Origin: Pomacea canaliculata
Taxonomy: Eukaryota > Mollusca > Gastropoda > Architaenioglossa > Ampullariidae
Length of the DNA: 64,000 nt
Assembly: GCF_003073045.1 (NCBI RefSeq)
Contig: NC_037602.1
Location: forward strand, 1,302,001 to 1,366,000
Direction of reading: 5' to 3'
Shown: in pieces, positions 28,301 through 64,000 of the stretch
Position numbering within the stretch: the first letter of the stretch is position 1
Layout: the number at the start of each line of letters is the position of its first letter
Notes under the pieces: model-generated
The model's input: the letters and a program-made list of their open reading frames with translations, nothing else
The model's database searches: none
What the model was told of the DNA's origin: nothing
Made by a program: the position numbers and the translations under genes

Positions 28301-28548
28301 AGACTGACTGGGCTGGCCACCATATCTGTTGAGCATGACTTGGCAAATGCACTCAATCTGAAGGAACTGATAACTCGTTTTGTACAGCAAAAAGCAAGAA
28401 AAGTGAGGTTTTAAGCATCAATTTCAGGACCAGGACTAAATAAATTGCAAAACAAATGATATAACATGGTTCACTTTTTGTGAGGTGGGGGGGGGGGCGC
28501 AGAATTTTTCTTTCGCCTAGGGCGCAACACAGCCTAGCGCCGGCCCTG
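25322..28548 (+). mobile_element. hAT-superfamily DNA transposon, non-autonomous or decayed
   Basis: The element is bounded by a perfect 8-bp direct repeat GGCACAGC (25314-25321 and 28549-28556), the target duplication length of hAT. Its ends are imperfect inverted repeats: it starts CAGGCCCGG with GTCGCCTAGGGCGCAG nearby, and ends with TCGCCTAGGGCGCAAC and CCGGCCCTG. A transposase C-terminus lies at 27902-28414. Internal duplications are present: about 25450-25600 recurs at 25655-25770, and about 27065-27200 at 27232-27380. A run of about 20 G occurs at 25775-25795. The upstream two thirds show no transposase, so the element could move only with help in trans, if at all. Confidence 0.9.
27902..28414 (+). 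pseudogene. hAT transposase C-terminal part (dimerisation region)
   Basis: One frame runs from SIEDRFKQFQEHSALFGFLY through LPISVASAERSFSKLKLIKN to the end KVRF and a TAA. SVASAERSFSKLKLIKNYTR is the signature of the hAT C-terminal dimerisation domain, of the ZMYM1-like or ZBED-like type. A single in-frame TGA lies at 28085-28087. The catalytic N-terminal two thirds are missing. Lies inside the element at 25322-28548. Confidence 0.88.
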
Positions 28549-36136: not shown

Positions 36137-39100
36137 ATGACTCCAGAAGAGATGTTCGAGTGCATGGATTTGCTACAAAGATTAAGTGATAAGGACCTGT
36201 CGTCACTGAAAGAGACCATAGTTGGACGACAACTTGCTGTGGAAAGCAGGGACCGTAAGTATTTGTCTTTCACACAATATACCCTGAATCAGCTAGTTTC
36301 GTTTCACTGACTGCTTTACAAGAAGACACAAGTGCATGAAACGATGACTTTAGCGTTTCCAAAACTCAGCTGCCATAATTACTTTCATTTATAATCCAGG
36401 CATGTAATGCATAATCCAGGCATGCACACTTCAACGCTTGTTTCTCATGAAGATAGTTGTTTTACAGATATTACTTTTCAAGCAGGTGTTAAAATGTGTG
36501 CATTTAGCGGTTTTCTTTGTTATCATGTAATGTTAATATATAAAATGGATTTGAAGCTGTTTCTGCTATGGTCTTGTACTAGCTTCACAGGTTTTCAGTT
36601 GGTGTCTTTCCTTTCAAACCTATCTAATCTCCAATTTTGAAGTTTAGACAAAAAGAAAACAATTACCAAACACTTTCTTATGACCTTATCTGGTAAGGTA
36701 ATAGAAACATTGTTTTCAGGTTTCAGAAATTGTGTATGCGTGCATGTATGTCTGTGTGTGTTTGCATGTGCGCATGTGTGTGTGTGTTTTCAGAGACCAT
36801 AAGATTAATCCTACAATGCTCTCCAAGTGCAGAAGAACTACTTCAGCGCAAAAAAATCCGTCGTGAAATTCTTTTTCAATATCTAGTATCCAAGTCTCAC
36901 CCTGTTGGATCATCAGTAGAGAAATCCGACTTGATCAAAAGAATACTGGCTTTCTGGGGTTCTCTGCAGCAAGTGTACACAAACTTACAGGTACAGATTT
37001 CTACTGAGATGAGTTTTACTGCAGCATGGAGTGAGCTATGCATGAAAGGGAAAAAAAGGTATGCTAGAAATTCTGAAGGTCTTTAGAAAGCTGAACTCAA
37101 ACACCCATCCATCTTTTAAAAATTCTTTGACTACCAGGTAAAATCAGTCTTGACATAGGTTGCAGAAATCTGGGGTTTAGTTAAAAACAACCCTCTGGGA
37201 AAAAAATCACACATTTGCGATCAAGTATTTCTTTATTTTTAGTGTTCCCCTGCATTCTTCAATATGGTTGTGCTTGGGGAAGTTGGTTGATATTCCCTGT
37301 ATATTATAGACACTTATATGAAATGCATAAAATTTTGGCTACAAGTCCTTAAACTGTCCATGACAAGACTTTGTAGACAAGCTTATCAAATGCTTCTTCA
37401 ACAGTATGAGCCTGGGAAACTCGACTGGATATCTGATGTAAAGAAAGTATTATCAGAGAATGGGTTCAGGATACAGTGGGTTAACCAGGAAGTGGCTGAT
37501 ATGTTCCTATCAGAATTCAGACTGTCTCATCTGTTCTTTGAGCCAAAACAGACACTCAAAAATGGATGATGACACAAAATATGGGTGGTTTCTCTCATTT
37601 AAAGATAGTATGCAGACAAAAAACATTTATCTGTTATAAGCAATAGGTGTGACAGAAACACTGTGGCTAGACTATGAACAAGAACTCTAAACCTTAATGA
37701 CAATAAAAGATGGTTTGATCCATCGATAGCAGCTCACTCAGGTTGTCAACAGAAGATGAACATTTTCTGTTCAGCTATCCCTATTATGAGATTCTTCAAA
37801 AGAAAAATAAGCTCTTCCAAACACCAACTGTTCAAGAAATAGAGGCTTGTCTGTCATGAATGATGATTTGCTGGTGTCCTTAGGAAAACATAGCTGAAGC
37901 AAATGATATGTGAGTAAAAGCACTTCTGAGTAAACAGAGCAGAGACTGGTTAATGTTTCATGTAATAATGGATACTTTCATGTAGCTGGAACTATTTTAA
38001 ATGTAGCAGAGTCTATATATGTAAGTTACAGAGTATGTGTGTATGTGTGAAAATGGTGGAATAGGTAATGCTTTACTTATAGAAGTGTGTATGTGTAGAT
38101 ATATAGAAATCTATTGAAATACCTGCATATTTATAAATAATTAGTCATGCCTCTCTGGAAAGAGAATATTCCTGATGACCATACACTCTGATTTAAATGA
38201 TATGAAAATATACATTTGCCTATAAGACTGCTGCTAAACACTGTTTTGTATTTTAAATATGCTTGTATCTCCCCATGTCATAATAACCATGAGTCATTGG
38301 CATTTAATATATCATATCATGTCTGCAGCATGTGTACACAAACATAGAGATACAGATCATAGTAAATTTTAGTAGTTATTTTATTCTTTTTTGTGACATA
38401 TGTGGGAGATTAGTTTCTCAATGACAGAAAAGACAGCCACTACAAGAAATATCCCCAAAACCTTTCTATGACAGCACAAAGAATCTTAAACAAAATATCC
38501 ATTCTTTATTGTTTGATTATTCTGAACCAGATTTTTAACCACTTTTAAAAAGGATCAAGAAAAGAGAATATTTCATATCCTATCCTGTTTCTCGTCCCTT
38601 TAGGCCACTGCAATCAATACCAGTCTGGCAATGCCTATGTCACAACGATCAACATTAGGGATAGCCACTGCTTCAAGCCAGCTGCAGAAAGAGACACCTC
38701 TAAAAAGGAGCAACAATAAGGACTCAAAGAATCAAAAAAATCCAAAGGTCATATTTTTTTTTAGTAAACAATGTACAGCAATACCAAATTGTTACCTCAC
38801 AGCTGATAGTGTGCCAAAGGGGAGTTGGGCTAAGATGAATGGAAGAATATTGGGACACAAGATAGTCGCAGAAATTCTGTTGATCATTTGCTTTGCTGAT
38901 TTTATTTGAATAACATGTTTGATGATATAATTTTCTATGATATTAACATGTATTTCAAACTGGCAATTTTATTTAGTTAGTTTCTTCAATAATTTGAAAG
39001 CAATGTTTCAGTAATGATAAATAACTAATTTTATTTAGTTATACTTTCTTCAATAATTTGTAAGCAATTTTCAAGTAATGATAGAAAAAATTCTGAAGCT

Positions 39101-42100
39101 GATATTTATCCTTTCTCTATACTTCCTTCAGGCTACCGCTTCCAACACCTCTCTGGCAACACCTGCTTCACTGAGAGCAGACTTGGCAACATCTACTGTT
39201 TCTAGCAATCCACTTCAAGAAACACCTGTAATCCCTATATATGGAGGCATAGATATGGACAATTTTTTGAAGGTTGAAATTTTTCTCAAAAAGAGAATTT
39301 CTTTCTTTTCTTTCCTTAAAGTGGCATACTGAAAGGGGTTTGGGCAGGGGTTTGTGGAGATCCCAGGTGAAACAAAAGAACACCCTAGAACATTTGTTTT
39401 CACTGCTTAAGATGTTGGCTAAAATGGATTTCTATTCCTTTTGTTTTTTGAGATTACTACTCTTACCACACTTTTCATACCAATATATTTTTTCCTTATC
39501 AAAAATTATTATTTTAATATTTAGGGGTATTTTTGAGGTGTTTTCTACAAAACGAGCTTGCATTTTACTTGAATTTAGGAAGAATTTAGTTTGGCTTTCC
39601 TGGCCCCCTAAAACCCTATAACAAAAGCAAGAGTTTTTTTTTATTGCGTTCTCTTTCTCTTCAGGAAGTTGTGGCTAATGCTTGTAAGGCAGCATCTGCT
39701 TCACAAATAGACCCAGGCACAGCCCCTGCTTCAAACCAGCCACTGAAAGAGACAGCTGTAAAAGAAAGCATTTATAAAGAAGACCTAAAGAAGAAAGGAA
39801 ACCAAAAGGTCAAAACTTTTTGTCAGTCAGTGCAGCCAAACTAAACAGATCACAATTACCTTGAAGTCCGTGGTGTACCAAGGAGGATGTATGTAGGGAT
39901 GGGTAGAAGTACAATGTTCTGTATTCACGGGACAACCGTTTATATTGTGTTTTAACAGATGGTGACCAGTGGAGCATTTAGTTTTGCTCTACCCAGGCAC
40001 ATTAATCCCTGTTTACAGTTTGGTTCACCACTGAAACTTGTATTCTCAACATTAAATTAGTACCAACACAGCTTTACAAACTTTTCAGAGTTTTTTAGTT
40101 TAAAATTCCAGTAACAATATAAATGTCAAACAAAAGTAAAAGATTTGTATTTAACATTGTGTCTTGTTTCCCCTCAACACTATATCTTGCTGGCCACCTG
40201 TTTGACAACATCCACTTTATAGAAATCAGCCTCAGGAACAGACACTGTTTCAAACCAGCCACTGCAACAGACACTTCTACAAAAAAGCTTTTATGAAGAT
40301 CCAAAGAATCAAAGCATTCCGCAGGTAATTGTATTGAATGGTGCCAACAAAGTAGACACATTCTTTCCATTAGTTGTAAATAATGACTGTAATACCCTAG
40401 CTCACAACATCAGATTTGAACCTAAAAATCTCCCAGATATCTTTTCAAATTTTGAAGAGCTTTTCTTCTAAGTTTAGTTGACATATACAGATAAAAGTAA
40501 AACTTGTTCATGTCTTACTCTGGCAGTGAGAAAACACTTAAATAGCTATTACGACTGATCTACGACAGCCTCTACAAATTCCAATGCTACTTATTGCTTA
40601 ACAATTACTCTCTGTTCATGTGACTTGGTCCCCAACAATGTAATAGCTTTATCTTTGTTACTTTTTCAAGATGAGGATATTTTTTAGTTTCTTTAGTATT
40701 ATTCATGCAGCATTCCAGTAATGACAGGAGCGACAAGGAACAAACTTTTCCAGTAATGACAAATCTTCAAAAAAAAAAGCAAGAGCTTTAATTGTTCTTC
40801 ACAGATTACTGTTCCCTCTCCTTTCACACCATTGTGTCGGATTCCCCCATTTAGCAACACTTGTTATGATCCTTATGACAGATTTCTACTGTTTTAATTA
40901 TTCTTAACCAGTTTGACCACTATTAAGCAGAATCAAGCATTTTATATTTGACATTCTATTCTGTTTCACCTGACTTTAGTCCACTACAGTCAGTACCAGT
41001 CTGGCAACACCTACTTTACAAAGATCAACATCAGAAACAGCCAGTGCTTCAAGCCAGCTGCAGAAAGAGACTCCTACAAAAATAAGCATTAATGAAGAGC
41101 AAAAGAAGAAGAAAAAAGTAAAGGTCAACAATTTTTTTTATCAATCAGTGCAGCAATACTAATAAGCATATTTTTTGCATGTGATGTTGTAACAAAGGGA
41201 ATATGGGCATCTGTTATGATGGGACGTCCCAGACAGTCTGTTGCTCTCTTTTTTTTCTTTTTTTTTTTATACATATGATGCTTATAGCATATAATCTGTG
41301 AAATGAATAAATATTTTAACTGATGGTGCTTGGTTATAAATGTCGCTTGCTTTCCTCCCCTAAAACAAAATCTGTTGAAAGAACAATGCATTGAATTTCA
41401 TATTCTCAATATTGAATTTTGCACAAAGACACTTTTAAAAAAAATTCTTATTGCTTTGTTCTTATGTAAAATTTTGATAATGCACTGAACTTCAAACAAA
41501 AGTAACAAACTTGAGGAGACACTGCATCCTAATTTCCCTCAACACTGGCCTTGTTTGGTAAAATCTACTTTACAGAAATCCGCCTCAAGTACAACCACTG
41601 CTTCAAACCAGCCGCTACAAGAGACACCTCTACAAAGAAGCTTTCATGAAGGGACAAACAATCAAAGCATTCCACAGGTAACATTTGTATTTAAAGGTGC
41701 TAAAAAAACCTATACACATTTTTTTCCATTAATTGTAAATAATAACTGGAATTCACTAGCTCCCAACATCAGCTTAGCACCTGAAAATCTCTCTGACATC
41801 ATTTCAAATGTTGCTGATTTTTTCAATGTTTAATAGAAATAATTATAGATATCAAAATAAAATTGATAATGTCTAACATTGACAGTGAGAAGGTGCTTAA
41901 ATAGCTATTGTGACTGATCGCTTGATCTTTATTATTTTTTCAAACTAATATTTTTTTAGTGTTTTCAGTATTTTCTGTCCAACAAAAACAAGAGCTTTGT
42001 ACTTTTCAGATTCCTGTACCCTCTCCTTTCACTCCATTGTGTCTAACTCCCCATTTTGCAACACTTATGATGCTTCTGAAACAGATTTCTACTCTTTGTT

Positions 42101-45100
42101 GTTTGGCTATTCTGAAGCAGTTTATTAACCTCTTCACAATCAAGAGTTTTATATTTGACATTCTATTCTGTTTCACCTGACTTTAGTCCACTACAGTCAG
42201 TACCAGTCTGGCAACACCTACTTTACAAAGATCAACATCAGGAACAGCCAGTGCTTCAAGCCAGCCGCAGAAAGAGACTTCTACAAAAATAAGCATCAAT
42301 GAAGAACAAAAGAAGAAGAAGAAACCCAAGGTCAACAATTTTTTATCAATCAGTGCAGCCATACTAATTAGCAAATGATAATTTGTTTGCATTTAATGCT
42401 GTAACAAAGGAAATATTGGCAACTGTAATGATGGGACATCCCAGACAGTCTGCTGCTCTTTTTTTATATATACATACGATGCTTATAGCATGTAATCTGC
42501 GAAATGAATAAATATTTTAGCTGATGGTGCTTGGTTGTAAAACACAATCTGTTGAAAGAACAATGCATTGAATTTCACATTCTCAATATTAAATTTGCAC
42601 CCAGACATCTTTTTAAAAATTCTATCATTGCTTCCATCTGAGGTGTAATTCCAATAATTTTATAAACTTCAAACATAAGTCAAAAACAAATTGCACTGAA
42701 CACCGTATCCTGTTTCCGAAAAAATTGCCTTACCTGGCAAAATCTACTTCACAGAAATCAGCCTCAGGTACAACCACTACTTCAGACCAGCCGCCACAAC
42801 AGACACCTCTACAAAGAAACTTTTATGAAGTCACAAACAATCAAAGCATTCCACAGGTAACTGTTTTTGTTAAATGATGCCAATAAACTAGACATATTCT
42901 TTCCATTCATTGTATTCATTTTATGCTGTAAGGACGTATCTTGAAACAGATTTTTACTTTTTATTGTTTAATAAAAACTAAAACAGTTTTTTAACCACTT
43001 TTTAAACAGAATCAAGAGTTTCATATTTGACATTCTATTCTGTTTCACCTGACTTTAGTCCACTACAGTCAGTACCAGTCTGGCAACACCTAGTTTACAA
43101 AGATCAACATCAGAAACAGCCAGTGCTTCAAGCCAGCTGCAGAAAGAGACTCCTACGAAAATAAGCATTAATGAAGAGCAAAAGAAGAAGAAGAAACCCA
43201 AGGTCAACAATTTTTTTTTATCAATCAGTGCAGCAATACTAATAAGCATATTTTTTGCATGTGATGTAACAAAAGGAATATGGGCATCTGTAATGATGGG
43301 ACGTCCCAGACAGTCTGTTGCTCTTTTTTCTTTATATTTGACATTCTATTTGTTTCACCTGACTTTAGTCCACTACAGTCAATACAAGTCCAGCAATACC
43401 TGCTTTACAAAGATCAACATCAGAAACAGCCAGTGCTTCAAGCCAGCTGCAGAAAGAGACTCCTACAAAAATAAGCATTAATGAAGAGCAAAAGAAGAAG
43501 AAAAAACCCAAGGTCAACAATTTTTTATCAATCAGTGCAGCAATACTAATAAACAAATTATATATTTTTTCGTGTAATGCTGTATTATATACAAAGAAGT
43601 TTTAATGAAGGCAGAAACAATCAAAGCATTCCACAGGTAACAATTTTTATTAAATGGAGCCAACAAAGTAGACACATTGTTTCCTTTGTCAAGTCTCGCA
43701 GCAACACAACAGGCTTCTTCCTCTTTCCCTCACCATCACTGTGTCCATCCTGTTCTGGCATACGCTCACAAGTAGATATACCCTGGATTGTTCCACACCA
43801 GTGGTGAGACAGTCACATGCCTGGTACATACATGTACCCCGACGATACTCAGCTCCTGACATCTGGCCCAGCTTGCCAACTTCAGTTTGTTTACCAGTAC
43901 TCAGCAAACCCTCGACTTTTCAAACACTGGATGTTGGCGAAAAAATTACTGGTCAAAATCAAAGTCTTTTCTACCACTTTCAAACAGAATCAAGAGTATA
44001 ACATTTTATCCTGTTCCACTTTCCTTTAGCCCGCAACAGTCAATACCAGTCTAGCAACACCTACATCACAAAAATCAACATCAGGAACAGCCAGTGCTTC
44101 AAGCCAGCTGCAGATAGAGACACCTAACAAAAGAAGCATCAATGAAGACCAAACGAGTAAAAAGAAACCTAAGGTCAACACTTTTTTTATATCAACCAGT
44201 TTAACAATACTAGTAAACAAATTACATATAATGCTGTAACAAATGGAATGTGGACATCTGCGATTATGGGACATCACAGAAGTTATTTCTCTGTTTCACA
44301 CTTTTTTAAAATGAGATGTGTATAGCATGTCATCTATTAAATTAATAAATATTTTAACTGATGGTTATTGTTTGGAAATTTCGGTTTGCTGTCCTCGCCC
44401 ATAACACTTGATTAGCTAAGAGGACTGTCCATTGGAACTCATATTCTCTATATCAAATTTGCAACTAGACATCTTTTTTAAAATTTTGTGTGCTTTTCAC
44501 TAATTTAAAATTTCAATAATGTATTAAACTTAAAATAAAAGTAAGAAACTTGCATTGGACATTGTAGCCTGTTCACCCTCAGTACTGGCCTTGTTTGGTA
44601 AAATCTACTTCACAGAAATCAGCCTCAGGTACAACCACTGCTTCAGACCAGTCGCCACAACAGACACCTCTACAAAGAAGCTTTTATGAAGGCACAAACA
44701 ATCAAAGCACTCCACAGGTAACAATTTTTATTCATTAGATTTGCACCTGAAAATGTCCCAGACATCGTTTCAAATTTCGCAGTCTTTTTTTCCATATTTA
44801 TTGAAAATATGCAGATAAAACTAAATCTGGCACTCAGGAAACACTTCAATATCTATTATGACTGACCTATGACAGAGTAAGACAGTGTTGCATATTATAG
44901 CCAACAATCTTCCCGATGGTCATAGACTGGGTTATTTGCAATACAACCCAAGACAACAACACCGGTATCCAGTGGACCTTCACCTGGTGGACCTGGACTT
45001 TGCAGATGGCATTAGTCTACTATTTCATTGTCAGCAACATGCAGAAACCAAACTGAGTCAGCTAGCAGAGGAAGTAGAGAAGACTGGCTTACAGGTCAAC

Positions 45101-48100
45101 AGAAAGAAGACGGAAGTGATGAGAATAAACAACAAGCAGGAACTCCCAATCCTACTTCAAGAAGAGAACATCCTGGAAACAGACCGCTTCACATATCTCA
45201 GGAGCATCGTTAACACAGACGGTGGAGAGGACGATGACATCAACAAGGCCAGCCATGCTTTCAGCAACCTGCACCCCATCTGGAACTCCTGAGCATTGTC
45301 CTCTAACACAGCAGTAAGACCCGTGTCTTCAAGCTCCAGACATTTACCAACCGATGCCTACGCCATATTCTGGGAATAAGATGAATTAAAAGATCTCCAA
45401 CAGCTGCCTGTGGAAAAGAACCAACCAGAATGTCACTAGCCAAGACAACAAAAAGCGCCAATGAGGCTGGGCAGGACACACCCTGCACAAACCAGCTGAC
45501 ACCATTGCCAAGCAGGCACTTGACTGGAACCATCAGGGGAAGAGGAGAGTTGGGAGACCTTTCACACCACCATTGTGTCGAGCACACGTTTGGCAACTCT
45601 TGTTATGACCTGACAAAGATGTCTGCTCTTTATTGTTTGATTATTCCGAACCAGTGTACTTACCACTTTTAAACACAATCAAGAGTTTTATATTTCACAT
45701 TGTATTCTATTCTCACTTTAGGCCACTACCAGTCTGGCAACACCTTCTTCACAAAAATCATCATCAAAAGCAGCCACTGCTTCAAGCCAGCCGCAGAAAG
45801 AGAAACCGAAAAAAGGAAGCATTAATGAAGAACAAAAGACTAAAAAAAAACCAAAGGTCAACAAATTTTTTTTCAATCAGTGCAGCAATACTAATCAACA
45901 AATTGTAATTTTCTTGCATGTAATAACAATCGATATATAGACATCTGCAAAGATGGAACATCCCACAAAGTCTTTTACTAGTCATCATTACTGTTGTTGA
46001 TTCTGATGTTCTCCATCTGTTTGCCCATGTCTCCTTCTTTTCTCAAGTGTTATGAGCACAGTGCAGCCGCTACAAAAAGCTTATGTGAAGACCCAAAGTC
46101 GCCATACATATTCTTTCCTTTCATGGTTTAACAAATGAGTTGAATTTTTTGCTATCTCCATTGCAGAGATTTTTTTAAGTTTCATTCCCACATCCAAATA
46201 AAATAAACTATTAGGACTGGGCTATGACAGGCTCTACAAGTTTCAATGCTCCTTAATCCTTAACAATTGCCATCTGCTCATGAAACATCCTTCACCAACA
46301 TGTCGCTTTATCTTTGCTACTTTTCAAGCTGATAATATTGTTTAGTTTAGTATTTTTAATGTAACTTTCCAGTAATGATAAACAAAAGCAAGAGCTTTGT
46401 ACTTGACATATATTCCTGTTCCTTGACATTTATGCCTGATGGCACTTGTGAAGTACAATGTTTCTGTAGGAGAAGCTATTATGTAAAAAAATCAACTAAA
46501 GGGGAAAAAAGTATGGGCACACCAAAATGTCTGTAGCCATTTTTAAACTCTTTTTGTGTTGTTATTATTATGCTTCTTGAAAGTATTTCTATTCTTTATT
46601 AATTGTTTATTCTGAGCCAGATTTTTTTAACATTATAAACTTTTTTAAAAAGATCACGAGTTCTGTACTTCACATTTTATTCTGTTTCTCCTGCCTTCAG
46701 TCCACTCCAGCTAAAACCGCTTTGACAACACCTACTACACAAGGATCAGCCTCAGAAACAGCAATTATTTCAAGCCAGCCTCCTAAAAAGGCACCTGTAA
46801 AAAAAATCTCTAAAGAAGGCCCAAAGAAGGAAAAAAATCTGAAGGTAAAAATGTGAGCTAGAAATCTGTCGACAACCTATAGAGTTCATAAAGATACACG
46901 TGTGTATGTTAATGTGCAAGAGCTGCCATCCAGTAGAACTGTCATCACGACAGCTGACTGTTTCTCTTGTACACACAGGTGTATACAGAGGTGTGTGTGC
47001 TTATGTACTTGTCCCCCAGAAGTCTCTACGACAACTAACCGTCTCGCCAGGTACACAGTCTGTAGGGGGTTGAAGGTGCCCTAGATGTCTAGTTTCCTCT
47101 CCGGAATCGTGGGTGCAAACCCTAGACAAGACCTGAAAACAAGCTACCCAACACTGAACTTTGCCAGTTATTTACATGGCAAGTTGGATGCTGTCATCTT
47201 CCAGATCATTCGCGCCATTCACTTCTCACGTGGACATAAGGGTGGTGGGTGGGCGGCAAGATGAAAAGTGAAGGTGCCAAGGAAGCTAGTGTCTCACACA
47301 AGCTCCCGCATCTATGAAATAAGTATTTTAACTGACGGTAACTGGTGGTGAATATTTCTTTGCTCTCATCGCAAAAAAATCTCCGGTGAGCATAGGACAA
47401 TCCGTTGAAAGTCATATTCTCAACACAAATTTCCACCCACTCAGCTTGTTACAACTATTTTCAGAGCTTTTTTCTAATGTAAATTTCCAATAATTATAAA
47501 GGTAATTATAATTAAAAGTAATTACAAACTTCAAACACAAGTAAAAGACTTTGCATATGGTGTTGTTTTCTGTTTCTTTTGAACACTGGCTTTGTCTTGC
47601 AACATCTACTTTACATGCAGAGACCAGCCTCAGAAATGGAGACTGCTTCAAGTCAGCCGCTGCAAGCGACACCGGTAAAGAAAAAACCAAAGAAACCAAA
47701 AATTAAAGAGGTAACATCATTATTAAACATTACCAACAGACTAGACATATTCTTTCTGTTCACGGTAATTAATGACTAGAACTCACTATTTCCTAGCATC
47801 ATATTTGCACCTGAAAATCTCCCAGACAGCTTTATACATTTTGCAGAGATTTTTATCTTTACGTTTAATTGAAATATACAAATAAGAATAAACTCTAGCA
47901 GCAGAAAATGCAAAAAACACATGGGTCCCTTGACAGTGAAGATGTTTCTACCTTAACTCTGCTGGACCTGTCTGCTGCATTTGACACTATGGACCACTCT
48001 CTGCTCCTTCACCTCTACGGGATTTCTGGACCTGCACTAGCGGGGTTCAACTCCTGTCTCACTGACAGGATGTAGACTGTGTGTTGATGGTCAAACATCT

Positions 48101-49096
48101 CGCCATGCTCCACTTTCTTGTGGTGTCCCTCAAGGCTCAGTACTCGGCCCACTTCTGTTTATTCTGTATATGAAGCCACTTTCATCTTGCATCCAGTCTC
48201 ACATCGTTTCTTATCAATCATATGATGATGATACACAGCTGTACAACTCCACTCCACCGGCTGTCTCTCTCTGCTACCAGCACCATAGAAATCTGAATTA
48301 ATGAAGTCAAAGACTGGATGGTGACAAACAAACTTAAAGTCAATGATGATAAAACAGAAACCCTCCTATGTTCGAGAAAAAGAAATCCATCTTCTCTCGT
48401 TTGTCCACCAAATCACATCAAGGTGGGGACACCAACATCACCTTTGTGTCCTCCATCAGGAACCTGGGATTTATTATCACTACTGACATGACTCTTGATT
48501 GACAAGTTACAGCTGTCTGTCAGTCTGTCTATTATGATAAACAAGTCGCACCTGTTTGTCAGTCTGTCTATTATAATAGACAAGTCACAGCTGTCTGTCA
48601 GTCTGTCTATTATGATAGACAAGTCACAGCTGTCTGTCAGTCTGTCTATTACGATAGACAAGTTACAGCTGTCTGTCAGTCTGCCTATTATAATAGACAA
48701 GTCACAGCTGTCGATAGAAAAGAGGAAAAAAAATTTTCAATTAAAAAAATAACACCTTGTAACGACCAGGGTGTTACACTTTTAAAGGCAGATTCTGTTC
48801 TTTATTTAATTACTCTCAACAATTTTTTCACAGCCTTATATAAAGTAAAGAGTTCTGTATTTGAGAATGAGATATTTTTCTATTCCCTTCAGGCCACTTC
48901 ATCTGACACCGGTTTGGTAACACCTTCAACCTCAGGAAGACCCAGTGTTTCAAACCTGCAGTCGCAAGAGAAACCTTCAAGGCGCTTCGATGAGGACCAA
49001 AATAACCAAGCCACACACAATTTCCAACAAAACTCAGACAATCAAGACAATGAAAATCCACAGAGTAAAGAAACTGGTAAATGCATATTGTCATGA
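36137..49096 (+). CDS. C3orf38-like gene A: N-terminal domain plus about 16 tandem linker exons, no C-terminal domain found
   Basis: Exon 1 is 36137-36254 (phase 1) and exon 2 is 36794-36972 (an alternative end at 36990 is also in frame). Together they encode about 99 aa: [20 protein letters not shown]..., [18 protein letters not shown] and [20 protein letters not shown] recognise this as the N-terminal domain of vertebrate C3orf38 (DUF4518-type, function poorly known). The linker exons follow, all phase 0-0. A type: 38604-38747, 39132-39272, 39665-39808, 40980-41123, 42187-42330, 43059-43202, 43369-43512, 44030-44173, 45722-45856, 46701-46844 and 48893-49096. B type: 40223-40324, 41576-41677, 42755-42856, 44616-44717 and 47621-47710. 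With every exon the product would be about 808 aa, mostly Ser/Thr/Lys-rich and probably disordered. The last exon either reads into a TGA at 49094-49096 or is spliced at a possible donor at 49077; no C-terminal NTF2-like domain appears before gene B. Exon inclusion is inferred, not proven. Confidence 0.72.
36719..36793 (+). promoter_or_regulatory. TG-rich tract at the 3' splice site of gene A exon 2
   Basis: An imperfect TG tract ends in gtgtgtgtgttttcag immediately before exon 2. Gene B has an equivalent tract at 57839-57887, and both introns share a TTTCAGGTTTCAG block just upstream. In other animals, UG runs next to 3' splice sites are bound by TDP-43 or CELF-type proteins and weaken exon inclusion. 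Regulation here is inference. Confidence 0.5.
37085..37570 (+). mobile_element. LINE fragment: C-terminal region of a non-LTR retrotransposon ORF2
   Basis: The + strand 37309-37570 encodes [20 protein letters not shown], then [20 protein letters not shown] and [19 protein letters not shown], ending in TGA. Upstream pieces read VKSVLT.VAEIWG and [10 protein letters not shown] in shifted frames. This order ([29 protein letters not shown]...GF, W.NQ.V) is a C-terminal pattern I associate with LINEs of molluscs and cnidarians. It sits in the intron after exon 2 of gene A. Several stops and frame changes make it a dead fragment. Confidence 0.65.
43690..43990 (+). mobile_element. LINE reverse-transcriptase fragment
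   Basis: The frame 43817-44029 encodes [18 protein letters not shown] and then [15 protein letters not shown]. This resembles the (Y)ADDTQL catalytic box followed by the W(M)..NKL.VN..K block of CR1- or Jockey-like LINEs, with Pro in place of Ala. The preceding 43690-43816 may derive from the [10 protein letters not shown] region but is too decayed to say. It lies between an A exon and a decayed B exon on the left and the next A exon (44030). Confidence 0.7.
44880..45560 (+). mobile_element. LINE reverse-transcriptase and C-terminal fragment
   Basis: The frame 44885-45292 encodes [20 protein letters not shown], then [20 protein letters not shown] and [16 protein letters not shown]. This is the reverse-transcriptase catalytic box (FADD, here FADG, with the last catalytic Asp lost) followed by the GLQVN..KTE block. 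Further on, [18 protein letters not shown] and neighbouring frames recall the C-terminal block RRWKWIGHTLRKP...WNPQGKR of the same LINE type. An internal deletion separates the two parts. It lies in an intron of gene A. Confidence 0.8.
47925..48490 (+). mobile_element. LINE reverse-transcriptase fragment (CR1/Jockey-like)
   Basis: Recognisable blocks in order on the + strand: [54 protein letters not shown] (catalytic box with Asp for Ala), [20 protein letters not shown] and [19 protein letters not shown]. Stops and frame changes separate them. The end of this coding sequence runs directly into the 39-bp minisatellite at 48498. Located in the intron before the last A exon of gene A. Confidence 0.88.
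48498..48716. repeat. 39-bp minisatellite derived from LINE coding sequence
   Basis: About 5.5 units of GACAAGTCACAGCTGTCTGT plus CAGTCTGTCTATTATGATA (39 bp). Because 39 is a multiple of three, frames stay open on both strands. In the LINE frame the unit reads [13 protein letters not shown], which continues from TTDMTLD of the adjoining reverse transcriptase and resembles its normal next block (HV.AVCRSAYF). Confidence 0.88.
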
Positions 49097-50411
49097 TCAT
49101 TCACCAGACAGTCAGTGTTTTAAGAACTGTAGCTGTCATATCTCTTATGTGAAGTCTTATATAGAATTTGCTAGAGATTTATTCATGTCTTCCACTTGCT
49201 CTTACCTCTAAAAGCTAACCTTTCTGCCAACAGTACCTTGATGATGGATCTCTGGCATTTGATTAATCACAAGTAATATTGTAGTCTCCTAATAGGCTTT
49301 GTCAGCCACATGTACATACAAGAGAGAGGAGTGCTTTGACAGCACAGCTGTTTGTGTAGACATAGCTATGTGATAGTTCTGTATATCTGAAACAATTCAT
49401 ATTGAAATATTCCCGGTGCTCAGTGAGTTAAGCACCCTAGATCACAAGTATTATTTGCACCTTTACAATCAACTTGTCTTCTATTGACTGGACTTTAAAA
49501 GCTTCCTAAAGTTTTAGAAAATTGAACATTTTGTCTCTCTAGTTTTTGTTGCTAGAAAATGCATTTACTATTTTAGTTTTGCTTGTTTGTGAAAACTTGG
49601 TCTCTACTTTCTCTTTATTTCTTTCAATTTTAACAAGCTTCAAGAATCCATTATCCATGTGGAAAATGACAGCTGTCTCATTCATTACCTTTCAGCCTTT
49701 TAATTATAAGTCTCGTGCTCATATTTAGCATGCAAACTACTTTTCATATTGTTTCTCAGAATTGTAATTTGAGAAATATTTTCTTAAATAACAGACAATT
49801 TAGTGCTTAATATTTTTCAAATTTGTGTTATAACCGTACGTTGAAAGTCCTACTGGGACAAAAGTATTATGGGTAGCACCATGGAATTCCAAAGTTACTA
49901 TGTAATGAGGTCTAGTAATGCCAGAAAGATCATGTTAATGTTAGGTGACCACGAAGTAGACTCAAAATAGTTTACAGTTCTTGTCCAGAAAATGTATGTC
50001 GATTTTAATGTTGTTCATTATATTATTAGTTATATTATCATGAAACGAGTATTATTCAAGATTTTGTTTCCTCTGTGCCTTCTATGTTACATAAATGCTT
50101 AAAATAAAATAAAAAATCAGTGAGCAAATACACACACTTCTCGAATATAACATTTTTATCAAACATTGTAAGAATGCCAAACAAACGTTTCTTTTGATAA
50201 AAACGTGTCCAGATGTTTGATTTTATTAATATATTCGTTATATTAGAATTGTTTTACTGCTCTCTGGGACAAATATAATATTGTTTTACTGCAGATTTGT
50301 AAGAGATTTATTTGTGCTCAGTTGCATACTATAATTAGCCTAACACGAGAACAAAGTTATATTTATGCATAGTACAAAGTTGGTAAATATAGATCCAATG
50401 TAACTAGACAA
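49097..50411. other. Downstream region of gene A
   Basis: AT-rich, no coding potential recognised; probably the 3' UTR of gene A if its last exon reads through to the stop at 49094-49096. AATAAA-like signals occur near 50103-50110. No sequence resembling the C-terminal domain of gene B was found here. Confidence 0.5.
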
Positions 50412-50700
50412 GGTATGCCACCTCAAAGAAAATCGGTTAGTAGCATAACTGACTTAGAGGCCATAACAAACGGAGATATATATACACACACATATAAGTA
50501 GAGTCTTTGAGATTCAGCCTTCTGGTATAAACCTTCACAAAGGATTCCAGATCCCCCAAAATAGGGGAGGGTGTCAATAAATGCACTTGTTGCATCACCA
50601 TAAAAAATGCCAACTGTTTCCAAAAACACCAAAAGAGATTTGAGGGAGGCAAGAAAAGAAATCAAAAGAACAGGTTGCTTTTGTAGCCCTCTTAGCACAT
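50412..50700. mobile_element. Partial copy of a pogo/Tc1-like element (subterminal region)
   Basis: TATGCCACC at 50414, then tcggttagtagcataactga, followed by a stretch that matches 63917-63998 nearly base for base. There the same sequence lies just inside a terminus beginning CAGTCAAACC after a TA dinucleotide. Only the interior part remains here and the right end is not defined. Confidence 0.55.
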
Positions 50701-51596: not shown

Positions 51597-54500
51597 ATGA
51601 CACCAGAAGAGAAGAGGGAGTGTAGATGTCTGCTCCGCTTTTTAAGTTATGAAGATCTCGTGTCTTTGAAAGACACTGTAGTGGGACGAACATTTCCCGT
51701 GAAAAAAAGGCGGGGTGCGTATATTGTCTCTCTCTATATATATATATCATTAACCTACTTTTGGTTTCGTTCCGTTGAATAAGGAAAAGATGTATTTGTC
51801 GACAGCTTAAAAAGCAAAGCAGTTATACATTTTTCTAGGAGCTGTATCTAACTGAAAGTGAGTCCCTTAATCTCACAAAATGTTCGAATCCAAAGTTTTT
51901 CAAGTTTTTTTAATCACTAGTACACGAATGAAGTAATTGTCTGGCACCACATCATATCTGTTATCACTTGTATAGAAGGGTACACAACAGTGGCTCTCAG
52001 CCATTCTTACTAAAATCATGACATGCACCTAGGCTGCGGTGCATAGGCGGTCTTAACTCGAGTTAAGACCGCAGTTAAGCCAAGCACGCTGTCTTAACCT
52101 AAGACGCCTGTTAAGCGCGGTGCATGGGCGATCTCAACTCGCTAAGCAAGCGGTCTTAGTCTTAAAATTTGAGACTGGTCCCCCCCAGGCTTAACTCCTT
52201 GCGACACGCTGCTTACGCATGACCGTACGGCAGCTTTCGTAGTGACAGTGGCGCTTGATCGTGTTGTTTACTGAGTTGTTCTGTGTATACCATTGACAGA
52301 TACAGATTTTTGACTACTTCAGGGATCGATCAAATCCATTTGAAATGTATGACGTCGATTTGTTTCATCGTTTTTGATTCCGTCGAGCGAACATAACAGT
52401 GGAAAATGATTTCGACCATCATTTTCAACGAAAAGACTCTATTCCGCCTTTGTTGCAGGTAAGACTATACAGTCACCACCACTATATAAATATATAATTA
52501 ATAAGTGTAATTGACAGCATTACGTTAAAAATATTTAATAATGTTAGAATGACATCAAAATATAGTTACACAATAAAACAATGGCGTAGAACTGAAGACG
52601 GTGTTGACGACAGTGGGTGATGTTTGTTGTTATTATTGCTGCTCTCAGGTAAACATGAGACCACAAAACTTATACATATTTGGAAAGGAAAAAACTTGAA
52701 CTTTGCAATAAAAGTAATAAAAATTTTCTACTTTCACTCTGGTGACAGCAATAATCCAAAAATTTCAGTTTGCTGTACTTGGGTTATATGAGCAGACGCA
52801 CAATTCTGGCCATCCACTGTGCTCCGAGTGTTGTTTTAGAGTATGTAAACATTATTAAAAAATTGATGGCATTGTATTTAAGTAAAACAACACAGAATAA
52901 AGTAGCAGAGCACCCAGAATCTCTTATATAGTTTGATTTAATACATGTTTATCAATTTGACAGGCAGTTCCTTGCAGTATGTCTCAAGTTGTAAGCATGT
53001 GGCTCAAGAGATAGATAATCATAATAGGTTAATGTTATCATCGTCCTTTTTAACTAAAAATGGACAGTTTTGTTTAGATGTGAATACTAAAATATATAAA
53101 TCCTTGAGGTCAATAATATTTCCTATGTCTTTTGCAGGTGATGGTGGCATTACAATTTTATGCTACAAGCATAATGCAAGTTGTAGTGGCTGACGGCATT
53201 GACATGGGATGAATATGGGAGACAGTGGCTACCCGCTGAGGGACTGGCTTAGTTTCCCTTTTTTTAAATGCAGACAAGGAAAAGAACTCCTCCCCTTTAA
53301 TATCATATGCTTCAGAATATATTTGTGACTTCAGATACATCCCTGCCAAAACAGCAAAAATCATCATGTGTTCCATTGTGCTGTCATAATTTCTAACTGA
53401 ATAGTCACATTATTATTCAATTTGACTTTGGCTGAATAGCAACATCCACCCCAATCAGTTGGTGAACACTTTCAGCAGCTGGCATTACCAATCCATTTCC
53501 ATCTGTTTTTCCGTCTAGTATTTGTTACCTCAGCCTGTGCCAGATTTATTTTGATTTCCATGAATTGCAATTCTTTTTTAACAAGATTCAAGTTCACTGT
53601 CCAGGAGCTACAAAGTTTTTCGTTCTCTTATCTTTGTTGTGCATTCTTTTGTATCATCAGGTATTTTGCTTTCTTCGGGTGACCCAGTTGACGGATGGAA
53701 TTCTGGCTGCATGGTACATCACCTTGTGTGTTTTATCTGACAGTCAAAAAGATTTTTTCAGAAATGTGCAGCTGTCTAGGCCTAAGCCGCTTTGATGGCT
53801 TTGAATATTGCTGTGTGGCTCTCTGTGTGGTCTTGATGCTGCGCGAAAGAAATGTTTCTTAGAACAATTGATTCATGACACTTCTACTTGGGAGCACTGA
53901 GTACTTACCATCGCATTAGGTTACGTAAAGGTATTGTTTGAATTACTCTTCTGTGTAAGGTTTCTATATAAATAGATTATTGTGTTGCTTGTTATTCTTT
54001 GTGATGCCAAGTAACTAGTAAAAAGCAGTTATGTTGATATTTACTACATGCTGCTAGTAGGATTGTGAAGGACATGTTTCTCTCTTTAGAGTTAATATTT
54101 AGCACTTTTCACTGGACTCAGGTGTAGCCATTTCAGAACTTCATAACATCTTATTTGCAACTGTTTAAGAATGTAGACACTGCAAATCTGTCATTCAGAA
54201 GCTGATCAGTGTCTACTGGAATCTAAACTGTAGAACACTGGTACTGTAACATGTATTAGACTTGTAGTTAAAACTTGTTAAATGTCCAAACTGACTGTGG
54301 ATGTCAAGACAAACCTGCTGTGTACATCTCCCAAATTATGTCATAGTCTGTGTTTGGCACTTGAATTAAACAATTTATAATTTTAAGCCAGCTGTGGAAA
54401 ATTATATGTAGCTGCCCTCTCTAAAGTACAAAAACCTTGGTGGCTTTTCCTTAATATTTCATGTTTTGTTCAAAAATACCATCAGGAATATCTGATATAA

Positions 54501-57500: not shown

Positions 57501-60500
57501 TGAAACAAATCGACGTCATACATTTCAAAAGGATTTGATGGATCGCTGAAGTAGTCAAAAATCTGTATCTTGTCAATGGGCAACTCAGTAAACAACACGA
57601 TCAAGCACCTCTGTTACTACGACAGCCGCCGTACGGTCATGTGTAAGCAGCGTGTCGCGGTTAAGCAAGGAGTTAAGCCTGGGGGGGACCAGTCTTAAGT
57701 TTTAAGACTAAGACCGCTTGCTTAGCGAGTTGAGACCGCCTATGCATCGGAGCCCGGAGCCCTGGCCTTCTTTTGGTAAGTTGGAAGACCCATGAATATG
57801 GTCGATAGAAACCATTTTTTCAGGTTTCAGTCAACATCAATGTGTGTGTGTGCGCGTGTGTGTGTGGGTGTGTGTGCATTTTTTCAGAGATGATAAACGT
57901 AATCATACGAGGCCATTCAAGTGCAGGAGACCTACTTCGCCGCAAAAAAATTCAAAGAGAAATTCTTTTCCGGTATCTTGAATCCAAGTTGATCCCTGTT
58001 ACATCAAGAACAGAGAAATCTGTCTTAATCACAAAAGTACTGGCTCTCTGGACATCTCAGCAGGTAAGATTATAGTAATAAGCTTAAGTAGTTGATTCTT
58101 CGGTCTTTTTTTTTTTTTTTTTAGTCGAATGCAGATACAATTTTCAGCAACAAAGTTGACACTCATGTCCAATTTTTAGTTGAGCTTAAAACTGAAAATA
58201 CTTAGAAAAGTTAATGTTAAACATTTTATCAATGTACAAAAGACATGGATACTAAAAACATTCTTTCTTTAATGTGTGATTAGCTACTAGAGCTCTTTTT
58301 CTCCCTACCTCAGTTCCATACCTAAGAACCTCCGAGACAGTTTTTTCAGATCTTACAATCATTTTTGTTTCTTACCTTTGATTGAAAATATGCAAATAAG
58401 AATAAAGTTTGAGAAAACACTTAACCATAACGCCAGGGCTAGAAAAGGTAGGTCTCTAGTACTTTCAATATAACCTTATCCTTAAACATCACCTTCTCAG
58501 GCAAGTGATGTGGCTATCCAAAATGCTTCTGTCTTATCTTTTTACTATTTAGCTTCTTGTCTACTTATGTTCTTCAGTATTTTGAATGCAATATTCCAGT
58601 AATGATATTAGACTTCAGACAAAAGCAAGAACTTTGACATGGTCTTCTGTGTCTACTCTTCATTTATCCTGCAGCCCTTTGCTTCTAACACCTATCGAGG
58701 AGCTCCTACCTCACAGAGATCAACATCACGAGCAGCCACTGCTTCTAACACCAGTCGAGCATCACCTACTTCACACAGATCAGCATCACGAGCAGCCCCT
58801 GCTTATAACACCAGTCGAGCATCACCTACTTCACACAGATCAGCATCACGAGCAGCCCCTGCTTATAACACCAGTCGAGCATCACCTACTTCACACAGAT
58901 CAACATCACGAGCAGCCCCTGCTTATAACACCAGTCGAGCATCACCTACTTCACACAGATCAGCATCACGAGCAGCCACTGCTTCTAACACCTCTAGAGC
59001 AGCTCCTACCTCAGACAGATATACATCACGAGCAGCTCCTACCTCAGACAGATATACATCACGAGCAGCTCCTACCTCAGACAGATATACATCACGAGCA
59101 GCTCCTACCTCAGACAGATATACATCACGAGCAGCTCCTACCTCAGACAGATATACATCACGAGCAGCTCCTACCTCAGACAGATATACATCACGAGCAG
59201 CTCCTACCTCAGACAGATATACATCACGAGCATCCACTGCTTCTAACCAACCACTCCATCAAGACCCAAGAAGAACCTTTTTCTACAAGTACACAAAGAC
59301 TACGAGAAGTATGAAGGTAACACGTTTTATCAAACAGTGCTGGAATACTGTATCAAGAATAAATTTTCTTACAGGAAAATATTCCTCTTCTGAAAAGGAG
59401 TGCCAGAGTTTCTTTACAAGAGGTCATCTCCGAAATTCTCTTGCCTTTTTAAAGTTCCTTTTATGTTAATACAGTGTTACTAAACCAGATATTTTTTCTT
59501 CAATATTTGATTATTCTTAACTTGATGTTTTCACAACAATAATCTCCAAACGAGTTTTTGTACTTCATTTTGTTTCACTTCCTCATTCGTCTTGCAGCCC
59601 ATTGCATCTCACACCAGAGAGGCATCACCTACTTCACAGCGCCCTGCATCAATGACAGCCACTGTTTCCGTAACAGCCACTATTTCAAACCAGCCACTAC
59701 AGGAGACATCTCCAAAAAGAAGTTGCTATGAATAACTACAGAATCAAAGAATTCCCAAGGTAACAGTGCAGCAATACCAAACTCATTATTTGCTTATAAA
59801 GTGGTAAGCCACTGGAACTCTCTTTCTCCAAACATGAGATCTGGACCTGAGAGGTTTCCAAACACCTTTTCAAATTTTATTGAAGCTTTCTATTTCTTGC
59901 CTTTGAAAATGTGAATGAAATTTGAAATAGGAATGAAGTCAGATAAAACCTAACTCTGGAAGTAATGAGAAGATATTTATAGTCACAAAGTTTTGTCAAT
60001 AGTCAGTCTCTATTACTTCCAGTACTAGTTATCCTTAAAAGATCACCATCTTCTCAAGCTATAGTTCTGATAATCTCTGCAACCCCTACCCCTACCATCG
60101 TCTAATCTTTTTCAGGCTGTTTCAGCTTTTGTGTTTCACATCATATCCTGTTTTTCTTCAGTTCAGGGTAAGTTTATCTAACACCACCTGTCTGGCGACA
60201 TCTGATTCACAGAGACAGGTATCACAAACAACCAGTGTTTATAACCAGCGCTTGCAAAAGACAAGTATAAGAAATTTCAATGAAGACCACAAGAGTCTGG
60301 TTGTGAGTCAATGCCAACAGAACCTACATAAAAAAAGGCCTTGGCGATTTCCATAAAAAAAGAGAATGAAGTTATGGGGGAGAGTTTAGTCATCTGGTTT
60401 TACAAGCTCCTCAATGCTGAAAATCCAGCCATGAATGCCGTGGATAAAGTAGACAAGTTTGGACCTCAGCATTTTTGGGATAACTGCACTCTGAGGGTTG

Positions 60501-60883
60501 TCAGCAGAACAGAAAGTTTCTCAGATGAAAAATTCACTGGTAGCTTGCTTGTCTCACAACGACGGAAAGCTCTTGTCAGAGAGGAACACGTACTTTTGTT
60601 CAATCCAAATGTCAGCAAGGAAGGTGTTCATACAATCAAAAGTAAATTTGGAACCTTCATGGTGATGGTATGTGGAACTATTCATCAACACAACACTTGT
60701 CTCGGCAGCTTTGAACAGGCTTTTGGTCTTGTCCGGGAATCTTTCCAATCCAATAAATGGAAAATTCAGGTCACACACTTGCATGTGGAGAGCTTCCATG
60801 AAATCGCTGTTCCCACATTAAGTAATTCCGTAGAACAGGACTTGCTCGCCATTGCTAGTGCACATGCCTTATGTTTATCTTGA
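51597..60883 (+). CDS. C3orf38-like gene B: N-terminal domain, repeat-grown linker, C-terminal NTF2-like domain
   Basis: Exon 1 51597-51714 (phase 1) and exon 2 57888-58063 encode MTPEEKRECRCLLRFLSYED..., SLKDTVVGR and DLLRRKKIQREILFRYLESK, matching gene A and vertebrate C3orf38. Exon 3, 58675-59316 (214 codons, phase 0-0), is the linker made of internal repeats. A putative exon 4, 59598-59759, contains an in-frame TAA and is probably skipped. Exon 5, 60162-60302 (47 codons, phase 0), ends at a GTGAGT donor. The last exon, from about 60365, encodes WFYKLLNAENPAMNAVDKVD, FGPQHFWDNC, KFGTFMVMVCGTIHQHNTCL and FEQAFGLVRESFQSNKWKIQ. This is the C-terminal NTF2-like domain of the family, ending in TGA at 60881-60883. 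The junction into the last exon is unresolved: 60365 needs a 62-bp intron with a poor acceptor, while a site at 60390 is in another phase. Intron 1 holds the Harbinger pair. Confidence 0.73.
52032..55450 (+). mobile_element. PIF/Harbinger DNA transposon, left copy of an inverted pair
   Basis: The left end GGCTGCGGTGCATAGGCGGT and right end ACCGCCTATGCACCGCAGCC are inverted repeats; further inverted similarity (CTTAACT, CGAGTTAAG) continues inside. It contains transposase pieces at 52295-52459 and about 53140-53230. A segment at about 52605-52735 is absent from the right copy. Sequence at 55100-55200 (minus strand: MCDSEILVLIEEVTREKKRL) may be the Myb/MADF-like second gene typical of Harbingers; this is uncertain. 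Flanking trinucleotides (CTA, CAG) do not match, so no clean target duplication is visible. Confidence 0.8.
52295..53230 (+). pseudogene. Harbinger transposase fragment, two exons
   Basis: First piece (to 52459, ending at a GTAAGA donor): IQIFDYFRDRSNPFEMYDVD, LFHRF, a TGA, then FRRANITVENDFDHHFQRKD and SIPPLLQ. Second piece after an acceptor near 53139: VMVALQFYATSIMQVVVADG. In the Harbinger family the order is FRDRSNPF(E)..D..FY.RFR..R, IPP.LQVLVALRFYATG. The DDE catalytic segment is not recognisable. Confidence 0.78.
55452..57755 (-). mobile_element. PIF/Harbinger DNA transposon, right copy, inverted
   Basis: Ends are GGGCTCCGGTGCATAGGCGG and CCGCCTATGCATCGGAGCCC. It abuts the left copy with about one base between and is its reverse complement over most of its length, with deletions. 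The transposase start lies on the minus strand at 57377-57604: IQIFDYFSDPSNPFEMYDVD then LFHRFQFRSEHNLVENDFDH. The + strand at 55737-55790 matches the left copy's possible second gene; another + strand stretch (56319-56450, MEKLLSEVYADVLFSCITNN) also occurs in the left copy on the minus strand. The internal region is shorter than in the left copy by about 1.1 kb. Confidence 0.8.
57839..57887 (+). promoter_or_regulatory. TG-rich tract at the 3' splice site of gene B exon 2
   Basis: ATGTGTGTGTGTGCGCGTGT continuing to gtgcattttttcag directly before exon 2. Same position as in gene A, so it predates their duplication. A splicing-control role is inference. Confidence 0.5.
58681..59238 (+). repeat. 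Coding tandem repeats in gene B linker exon: 60-bp then 33-bp units
   Basis: Five to six 60-bp units (20 aa, for example APAYNTSRASPTSHRSASRA) run from 58681 to about 59000. Seven 33-bp units (11 aa, APTSDRYTSRA) follow to about 59232. The 33-bp unit equals the second half of a 60-bp unit with small changes. Units in the middle are near-identical, so the expansion is recent or homogenised. Other frames through the region stay open only because both periods are multiples of three. Confidence 0.92.
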
Positions 60884-63405: not shown

Positions 63406-63520
63406 ATGAATTCAGTAGAGAGTCGCGGGTGCAAACAATTACTATGTTTGTTAAGTGGAGAAGACCTGGTGTCACTGAAAGACACGGTAGTGGGACGCCA
63501 CATCGCTGTGGACGACGACC
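63406..63520 (+). CDS. C3orf38-like gene C, first exon only
   Basis: ATG at 63406 encodes MNSVESRGCKQLLCLLSGED then LVSLKDTVVGRHIAVDDD and ends in phase 1 at a GTATGT donor (63521). It matches exon 1 of gene B (LVSLKDTVVGR) and gene A ([11 protein letters not shown]) in sequence and phase; length is 115 nt against 118. The remainder lies beyond the window. It shows that the family forms a tandem cluster of at least three members. Confidence 0.75.
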
Positions 63521-63799: not shown

Positions 63800-64000
63800 C
63801 AGTCAAACCTCGCTACTATGCCACCCCACTACTATGCCACTCTCGGTATTATGCCACTTTTGCTCGGTCCCGACTATAAATTCAATGTAAAATAAATTTA
63901 CTATGCCACCCCCTCGGTTAGTAGCATAACTGACTTAGAGGCCATAACAAACGGAAATATATATACACACACATATAAGTTGAGTCTTTGAGATTCAGAT
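63800..64000 (+). mobile_element. Terminus of a pogo/Tc1-like DNA transposon, running off the window
   Basis: After a TA dinucleotide the sequence begins CAGTCAAACCTCGCTACTAT, typical of pogo/Tigger-type ends (CAGT..ACCTCG). TATGCCAC recurs four times within the first 110 bp (near 63817, 63833, 63851 and 63902), probably repeated binding sites near the end. 63917-63998 is nearly identical to 50436-50517. It lies in intron 1 of gene C. Confidence 0.62.

Follow-up and report, generated by a model that had tools for sequence, protein, structure and literature searches.

What becomes of a gene when one of its exons is copied again and again: does the array remain translatable, and which part of the protein does it build? 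This question is raised by a C3orf38-like gene of Pomacea canaliculata, referred to as gene 1, which lies in a stretch of 64,000 nucleotides (nt), the window (assembly GCF_003073045.1, contig NC_037602.1, positions 1,302,001–1,366,000 of the forward strand). All coordinates are relative to this window, and exon use and products are read from its genomic DNA. A sequence-only reading had described gene 1 as a C3orf38-like gene whose linker has grown into 11 A-type and 5 B-type exons with AG and GT borders, accompanied by two decayed B remnants. We located all 16 exons as well as both remnants. The array and the constraint on the frame of its A exons are solid; the interpretation as a linker fails as the sequence stands.

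An Exon Array behind Half a Domain

Gene 1 comprises the following features; the borders of A1–A11 and B1–B5 were read from the sequence and then fixed by script.

36137..36254, + strand: exon 1, with ATG start, N-terminal half of DUF4518 and phase-1 donor C|GTAAGT (translation, splice site, PF15008)
36794..36990, + strand: exon 2, phase 1 in and phase 0 out, matching PF15008 jointly with exon 1
38604..38747, + strand: A1 (0-0)
39132..39272, + strand: A2 (0-0), with the weakest donor, GTTGAA (splice score)
39665..39808, + strand: A3 (0-0)
40223..40324, + strand: B1 (0-0)
40980..41123, + strand: A4 (0-0)
41576..41677, + strand: B2 (0-0)
42187..42330, + strand: A5 (0-0)
42755..42856, + strand: B3 (0-0)
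43059..43202, + strand: A6 (0-0)
43369..43512, + strand: A7 (0-0)
43590..43636, + strand: B remnant reduced to its 3' half, with GT retained as judged by eye (nhmmer, B positions 56-102, E 9.9e-8)
44030..44173, + strand: A8 (0-0)
44616..44717, + strand: B4 (0-0)
45722..45856, + strand: A9 (0-0), 9 nt shorter
46067..46102, + strand: B remnant, short and weak (nhmmer, B positions 52-88, E 0.028)
46701..46844, + strand: A10 (0-0), donor GTAAAA (splice score)
47621..47710, + strand: B5 (0-0), 12 nt shorter
48893..49096, + strand: A11, last exon, with TGA at 49094-49096 and a candidate phase-1 donor after 49076
50103..50113, + strand: first poly(A)-type signals (AATAAA/ATTAAA) downstream of gene 1, starting at 50103 and 50108

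The order of the array is A1 A2 A3 B1 A4 B2 A5 B3 A6 A7 (b) A8 B4 A9 (b) A10 B5 A11, where (b) denotes a truncated B remnant, two in total. AG precedes and GT follows every one of the 16 exons. Eight of the copies A1–A10 are 144 nt long, with 141 nt in A2 and 135 nt in A9; B1–B4 measure 102 nt each and B5 90 nt. Exons 1 and 2 (118 + 197 nt) make up 105 codons, from which the array carries on in phase 0, in one frame with the N-terminal domain as had been claimed, and all 16 exons are open. The further claim that every exon is symmetrical, so that any subset could be skipped without a frame change, applies to 15 cassettes, which are multiples of three and of phase 0-0. It breaks down at A11, which ends in a stop or at its phase-1 donor: up to this donor A11 has 184 nt (48893-49076), and the stop lies 17 nt past it. 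The predicted product would range from 172 amino acids (aa) with zero cassettes to 814 aa with every cassette.

The homology of adjacent exons and of their intron flanks (nhmmer, flank alignments, tree) together with the shared phase and open frame identifies a tandem exon duplication array. nhmmer searches of the whole window with A and B profiles recover all 16 exons; the only further matches with E <0.01 are the linker exons L1–L3 of an adjoining paralogue, gene 2, and the remnant at 43590-43636, and three matches elsewhere in the window (E 0.28-0.54) are not convincing. The 16 exons were picked for looking intact, so that counting the truncated remnants turns 16/16 into 16/18. Three cassettes and two gene 2 linker pieces gave no match in a Pfam search. 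Mobile-element fragments as the source of the exons were rejected within the window: convincing copies are confined to gene 1 and the gene 2 linker exons, and the reverse-transcriptase-like pieces sit in introns, outside the exons. A described RNA family was rejected as well (Rfam, 0 matches at gathering threshold in 36000-64000).

The proposed family membership is borne out by a match of exons 1 and 2 to positions 3-98 of the 271 positions of PF15008, the DUF4518 profile of the C3orf38 family (E 1.9e-24, 86.8 bits at a cut-off of 27). This match covers the N-terminal half of the profile, and a C-terminal half was not found in gene 1 within the window. The single such match, to profile positions 127-269, lies at 60332-60880 and belongs to gene 2, downstream of that gene's own N-terminal exons (51597-51714 and 57888-58063); a tblastn search of the window with its protein revealed no other convincing copy (E 0.54 for the runner-up), and A11 has no DUF4518 match in a Pfam profile search. 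We consequently rejected a C-terminal domain of gene 1's own inside the window. Because the only C-terminal half belongs to gene 2 and no second domain follows the array, the array would form a tail instead of the postulated linker, and gene 1 would be a truncated DUF4518 relative, unless read-through into gene 2 happens.

The Frame of the A Exons Is Constrained

Absence of constraint on the reading frame had been named by the sequence-only reading as an observation that would count against it. We find strong frame constraint on the A exons and constraint that is suggestive only on the B exons. The coding frame of the 16 exons contains 0 stops, the other two forward frames contain 23 and 33 (5 and 0 exons open), and the three reverse frames contain 57, 18, and 44 (1, 7, and 3 exons open). 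Overlapping, size-matched intron windows lack stops in any one frame in 202/1008 cases at 102 nt and in 107/912 cases at 144 nt. In neutral simulations on the exon tree, a mean of 7.74 of the 10 A copies and 3.07 of the 5 B copies would be expected to carry a stop: runs without any stop numbered 0/3000 for A (15/3000 at half branch lengths) and 171/3000 for B (565/3000 at half branch lengths). Of the A divergence of 2.28 substitutions per site, 1.90 is held by terminal branches.

AG and GT are invariant in 10/10 A and 5/5 B exons, and positions +3 to +8 of the A donors vary; were the four dinucleotide sites to evolve as fast as the exons, they should have accumulated 12.5 changes (P about 4e-6). 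Exon lengths vary by 3, 9, and 12 nt only, and gaps of 1, 2, 4, and 5 nt are common in the introns. Moreover, the exon/intron difference ratio is 0.46, 0.60, and 0.46 in the three comparisons among the exon pairs A4B2, A5B3, and A8B4 (P 4.1e-4, 4.2e-3, and 3.1e-5). These ratios stem from local alignments, which keep alignable intron only, and from pairs that are non-independent; only alignments of at least about 150 nt that had 80 or more exon columns and 60 or more intron columns were kept. A forced end-to-end alignment with 150-nt flanks gave a lower exon difference in 18/18 pairs by a method that inflates intron differences.

Selection on the frame is accompanied by little selection on the residues. 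Six pairs among A4–A7 have pN/pS values of 0.28-0.56; pooled values are near 1 (see below) and codon position 2 is as variable as position 3, from which it follows that the frame is preserved, with hardly any constraint on the residues. This is the pattern expected for a disordered spacer.

Weak Splice Sites and a Putative Tunable Tail

How would such an array be used? Splice sites were scored crudely against a metazoan consensus, with four arrestin donors as a control (5.3-10.4). AAG|GTC stands at the donor in 8/9 of A1–A9, and all nine donors are poor (A1 2.1, A3 2.3); A10 reaches 5.7. Six of the acceptors of A1–A10 score 8.2-15.0, the exceptions being A4–A7. In B1–B4 the donors are good (6.9-8.6) and the acceptors poor (1.4-1.7); B5 is fair at both sites, as are A10 and A11. 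In total, 13/15 cassettes have at least one splice site at 3.3 or below. Weak sites of this kind are usual in skipped exons, and skipping of the cassettes is likely. The score is blunt, since exon 2 of gene 1, presumably constant, scores just 3.3 and 5.0, the 3.3 being no better than the A4–A7 acceptors.

The A exons moreover end in purines: the purine fraction of their last 45 nt is 0.76-0.84, except in A2 (0.56) and A11 (0.67), compared with a mean of 0.49 for the whole array. A3–A7 contain 6-10 GAA-type hexamers each, the other A exons 0-2. Cassette charges from A1 to A10 are +6, -2, +2, +5, +6, +5, +5, +4, +8, and +7, hence +4 to +8 in 8/10, and a Lys-rich run ends 8/10 A peptides; B1–B4 each carry 0 and B5 +5.

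We tentatively take these data to describe a tail of disordered residues, tunable by splicing, on a DUF4518 N-terminal domain, the best reading at hand though short of an even chance. The anatomy is seen in the sequence: a tandem paralogue has the N-terminal domain, with no C-terminal one as annotated, and a former linker exon has multiplied, partly as A-B pairs, into 15 0-0 cassettes, to which a short last exon is attached. The product would consist of the N-terminal domain and a disordered tail rich in Ser, Thr, Pro, Gln, and Lys. Selection preserves the reading frame and the splice dinucleotides, perhaps exon length as well, and hardly acts on the residues, which is supported statistically for A and suggestive only for B. 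Judging by the splice scores, the cassettes would be skipped by default, and SR/Tra2-type factors binding the purine-rich A 3' ends might raise inclusion: A inclusion would mostly add positive charge, B1–B4 neutral length.

Several observations weigh against this reading. At the level of the residues, pooled pN/pS is 0.88 for A1–A10 and 1.12 for B1–B5, and minimum changes by codon position amount to 8/19/15 in A4–A9 and 8/9/8 in B1–B4, so that protein-level constraint on the cassettes is weak. In a neutral composition test, one of four measures (Ser/Thr/Pro/Gln/Ala) is somewhat high, a level reached by 28 and 66 of 1000 runs. The N-terminal domain itself has a dN/dS of 0.77 between gene 1 and gene 2 and thus evolves loosely. 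As to exons and introns, P<0.05 is attained in only 6/47 comparisons kept (exons lower in all 6), the ratio is near 1 in most deeper pairs, and the young pairs A4/A7 and A5/A7, which have short introns, yield 1.08 and 1.02; the A1/A10 comparison tilts the opposite way (1.53, P 0.053). The dinucleotide test for A drops to P 0.04 when the two most divergent copies are excluded and terminal branches only are used, and other flank columns are likewise invariant: -9, -6, -5, -4, and +10 in the ten A copies and +3, +4, and +11 in the five B copies. In some DNA alignments, cancelling 1-2-nt gaps occur inside A3, B5, and A-to-B comparisons, where short shifts within the exons may have taken place. At the splice sites, the donor GTCAAC of A4–A9 scores 3.3, which 12.8% of window GT reach, that of A2 scores -0.2 (reached by 39.7%), and with 3.7, a score that 11.8% of window AG attain, the A4–A7 acceptors are no more than fair. 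With weak A donors and weak B1–B4 acceptors, several exons are perhaps seldom or never used. GAA-type hexamers, finally, are absent from A1 and A2, and each of A8–A10 has 1-2.

Decay, a Splicing Code, an Invariant Tail, or Read-Through

Much of this would also suit a decaying partial duplicate: after loss of the C-terminal domain gene 1 would have become dispensable, the array would spread by unequal crossing-over, and its open frames would be left over. The missing C-terminal half, the in-frame stop and frame change in the adjoining gene 2, the pN/pS near 1, the weak splice sites, and the recent origin of copies A4–A7 all agree with decay, and the simulation for the B exons taken alone is compatible with neutrality (the 171 runs given above). 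We nevertheless consider it doubtful: the A exons diverged mostly on separate terminal branches, yet contain zero stops, which none of the 3000 neutral runs reproduced at full and 15 at half branch lengths.

A bolder version of the tunable tail would treat the A-B pairs as a two-letter splicing code dialling length (through the neutral B1–B4) and positive charge (through the A exons, mostly +4 to +8) almost separately, in up to 2^15 combinations. An undivided ancestor exon resembling L2, with good sites at both borders, would have duplicated; the A line would then have lost its good donor and kept the old acceptor (good in 6/10, fair in A4–A7), the B line would have exchanged that acceptor for a weak one within the exon, and the pairs would have multiplied afterwards. 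We regard this as improbable, and the merely fair A4–A7 acceptors weigh against it.

A translated, invariant tail, in which all exons or a fixed set (e.g. the good-site exons) are always included, would explain why the frame is kept in every copy. It would also accommodate the fair sites on both sides of A10, A11, and B5, and the low scores of exon 2 imply that a low score need not mean skipping. The weak site in 13 of the 15 cassettes speaks against it, and it is a slightly weaker candidate still.

Least probable of all is a read-through from the A11 donor (after 49076) to gene 2 exon 2 (57888) that skips gene 2 exon 1 and would place the array in the interior of a larger protein ending in the C-terminal domain: the donor CTG|GTAAAT scores 6.0, a value that 3.6% of GT attain, the phases are compatible, gene 2 exon 1, a first exon, is without acceptor, and the gene 1 stop follows so closely upon the donor, yet two poly(A)-type signals (50103 and 50108) lie after gene 1, the intron of 8.8 kb would contain a foldback element, gene 2 has its own start, and the L3 frame change precedes the C-terminal half.

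Gene 2 and the Origin of the Array

The neighbouring paralogues, among which gene 2 was delimited by sequence comparison, comprise:

51597..51714, + strand: gene 2 exon 1
57888..58063, + strand: gene 2 exon 2, with phase-1 acceptor (also PF15008)
58675..59316, + strand: gene 2 linker exon L1, grown by in-exon tandem repeats of 60- and 33-nt units
59598..59759, + strand: gene 2 linker exon L2 (0-0), with in-frame TAA and the look of an undivided A/B ancestor
60162..60883, + strand: gene 2 last exon L3, with an A-like start, then the C-terminal DUF4518 half (60332-60880), its frame off by one base
63406..63520, + strand: gene 3 exon 1; the gene continues beyond the window

From which exon did the array arise? 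According to nhmmer, A and B are homologous along most of their length; in the alignments the B acceptor falls at a place that is exonic in A, and the old acceptor of A was not found in B. L2 combines an A-like acceptor and start with a B-like end and has good splice sites on both sides, a mix that makes an undivided ancestor exon resembling L2 likely. In the tree, whose root support is weak (31), B1–B4 cluster (77) with B5 outside, and A4–A9 cluster (89). A11 groups with L3 and L1 at low support (56), L3 with L1 at 81, in agreement with a view of A11 as the stump of the last exon of gene 1. A4B2 is alignable with A5B3 and A8B4 over about 0.75-0.97 kb including introns, which argues for duplication as A-B pairs; the distance from A start to B end is 0.66-0.70 kb in four pairs and 1.0 kb in A10-B5. 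About 0.2 kb upstream of A11 lies a 39-bp minisatellite of 5.6 copies (48496-48712).

The same segment has been lengthened by whole exons in gene 1 and by in-exon repeats in gene 2: the 60-nt and 33-nt units of L1 are in frame, seven copies of APTSDRYTSRA occur, and the exon encodes 214 aa. Since L1 has also expanded, growth of the linker segment recurs. Gene 2 shows two irregularities, the TAA in L2, an exon that is skippable because it is 0-0, and a one-base frame change in L3 (60162-60361) beside A runs; the frame change may reflect an assembly error or be a genuine lesion. For the C-terminal half, an AlphaFold model built with no alignment was unusable (mean pLDDT 36), a sequence search of the PDB gave a single match (E 0.4), and a scan of viral_contigs found no relative. 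Most of gene 2 intron 1 is occupied by a foldback of about 5.6 kb (52118-57749), in which 13 inverted segments are 84-96% complementary; it is probably a large inverted-repeat element. An 85-bp stretch occurs in two 98% identical copies beside genes 1 and 3 (50433-50517 and 63914-63998).

Comparison with Known Exon Arrays

Measured against the PF15008 profile, which has about 28 positions between the matched parts (3-98 and 127-269), gene 1 places 15 cassettes after the N-terminal half and gene 2 a 214-aa repeat exon. The closest likeness is the PEVK region of vertebrate titin (TTN), where exon duplication likewise built up a long series of short, repeat-like exons and splicing varies the length. 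However, PEVK, documented at the RNA and protein levels, is the internal spring of a giant muscle protein, whereas the gene 1 tail would belong to a small uncharacterised protein and is predicted from DNA alone. According to a PEVK study, part of the evolution of the region is governed by total length rather than by selection on particular exons, and LINE elements contributed to the duplications (PMC6469411).

In Dscam-type mutually exclusive tandem exons, one exon per group is chosen. Gene 1 shares with them tandemly duplicated homologous exons in one gene, but its 15 cassettes are all 0-0 and allow independent inclusion; mutually exclusive tandem exons are the subject of a survey (PMC9013439). 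Among molluscs, the oyster alternative oxidase gene combines a duplicated exon with alternative splicing, and two mRNA forms are outlined in the abstract (PMC5589949): this is an enzyme with two forms, in contrast to an array of 15 cassettes.

C3orf38 is listed in one analysis among the nine most understudied selectively essential genes (PMC9576728). The titles and abstract openings listed by searches of the open-licence PMC literature on C3orf38 and on tandem or duplicated exons in molluscs, gastropods, or disordered proteins contain no description of an exon array in the C3orf38/DUF4518 family, and a search of that literature for DUF4518 or PF15008 by name gave nothing. Small-exon arrays coding repeat-like spacers are already known. 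If transcribed, the gene 1 array would equip a small protein with 15 in-frame cassettes, each independent of the others, in a family with almost no function reported in those titles and abstract openings. It looks like a case of selection on frame, perhaps on length, nearly without selection on residues, and two adjoining paralogues lengthened by different routes offer a natural experiment on the way in which disordered tails are built by duplicated exons.

Other Elements in the Window

Reverse-transcriptase-like remnants, presumably LINE, lie in gene 1 introns at 44873-45289, 37291-37566, and about 47955-48400; the first has an RVT_1 match of only E 0.0061, the second no Pfam match. Upstream of gene 1, several arrestin-domain-like gene pieces were recognized by eye in tandem (1351-33070), and the single piece searched, 30566-30844, matches Arrestin_N (E 6.2e-24). 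A hAT transposase dimerisation piece is found at 28088-28414 (PF05699, E 5e-11).

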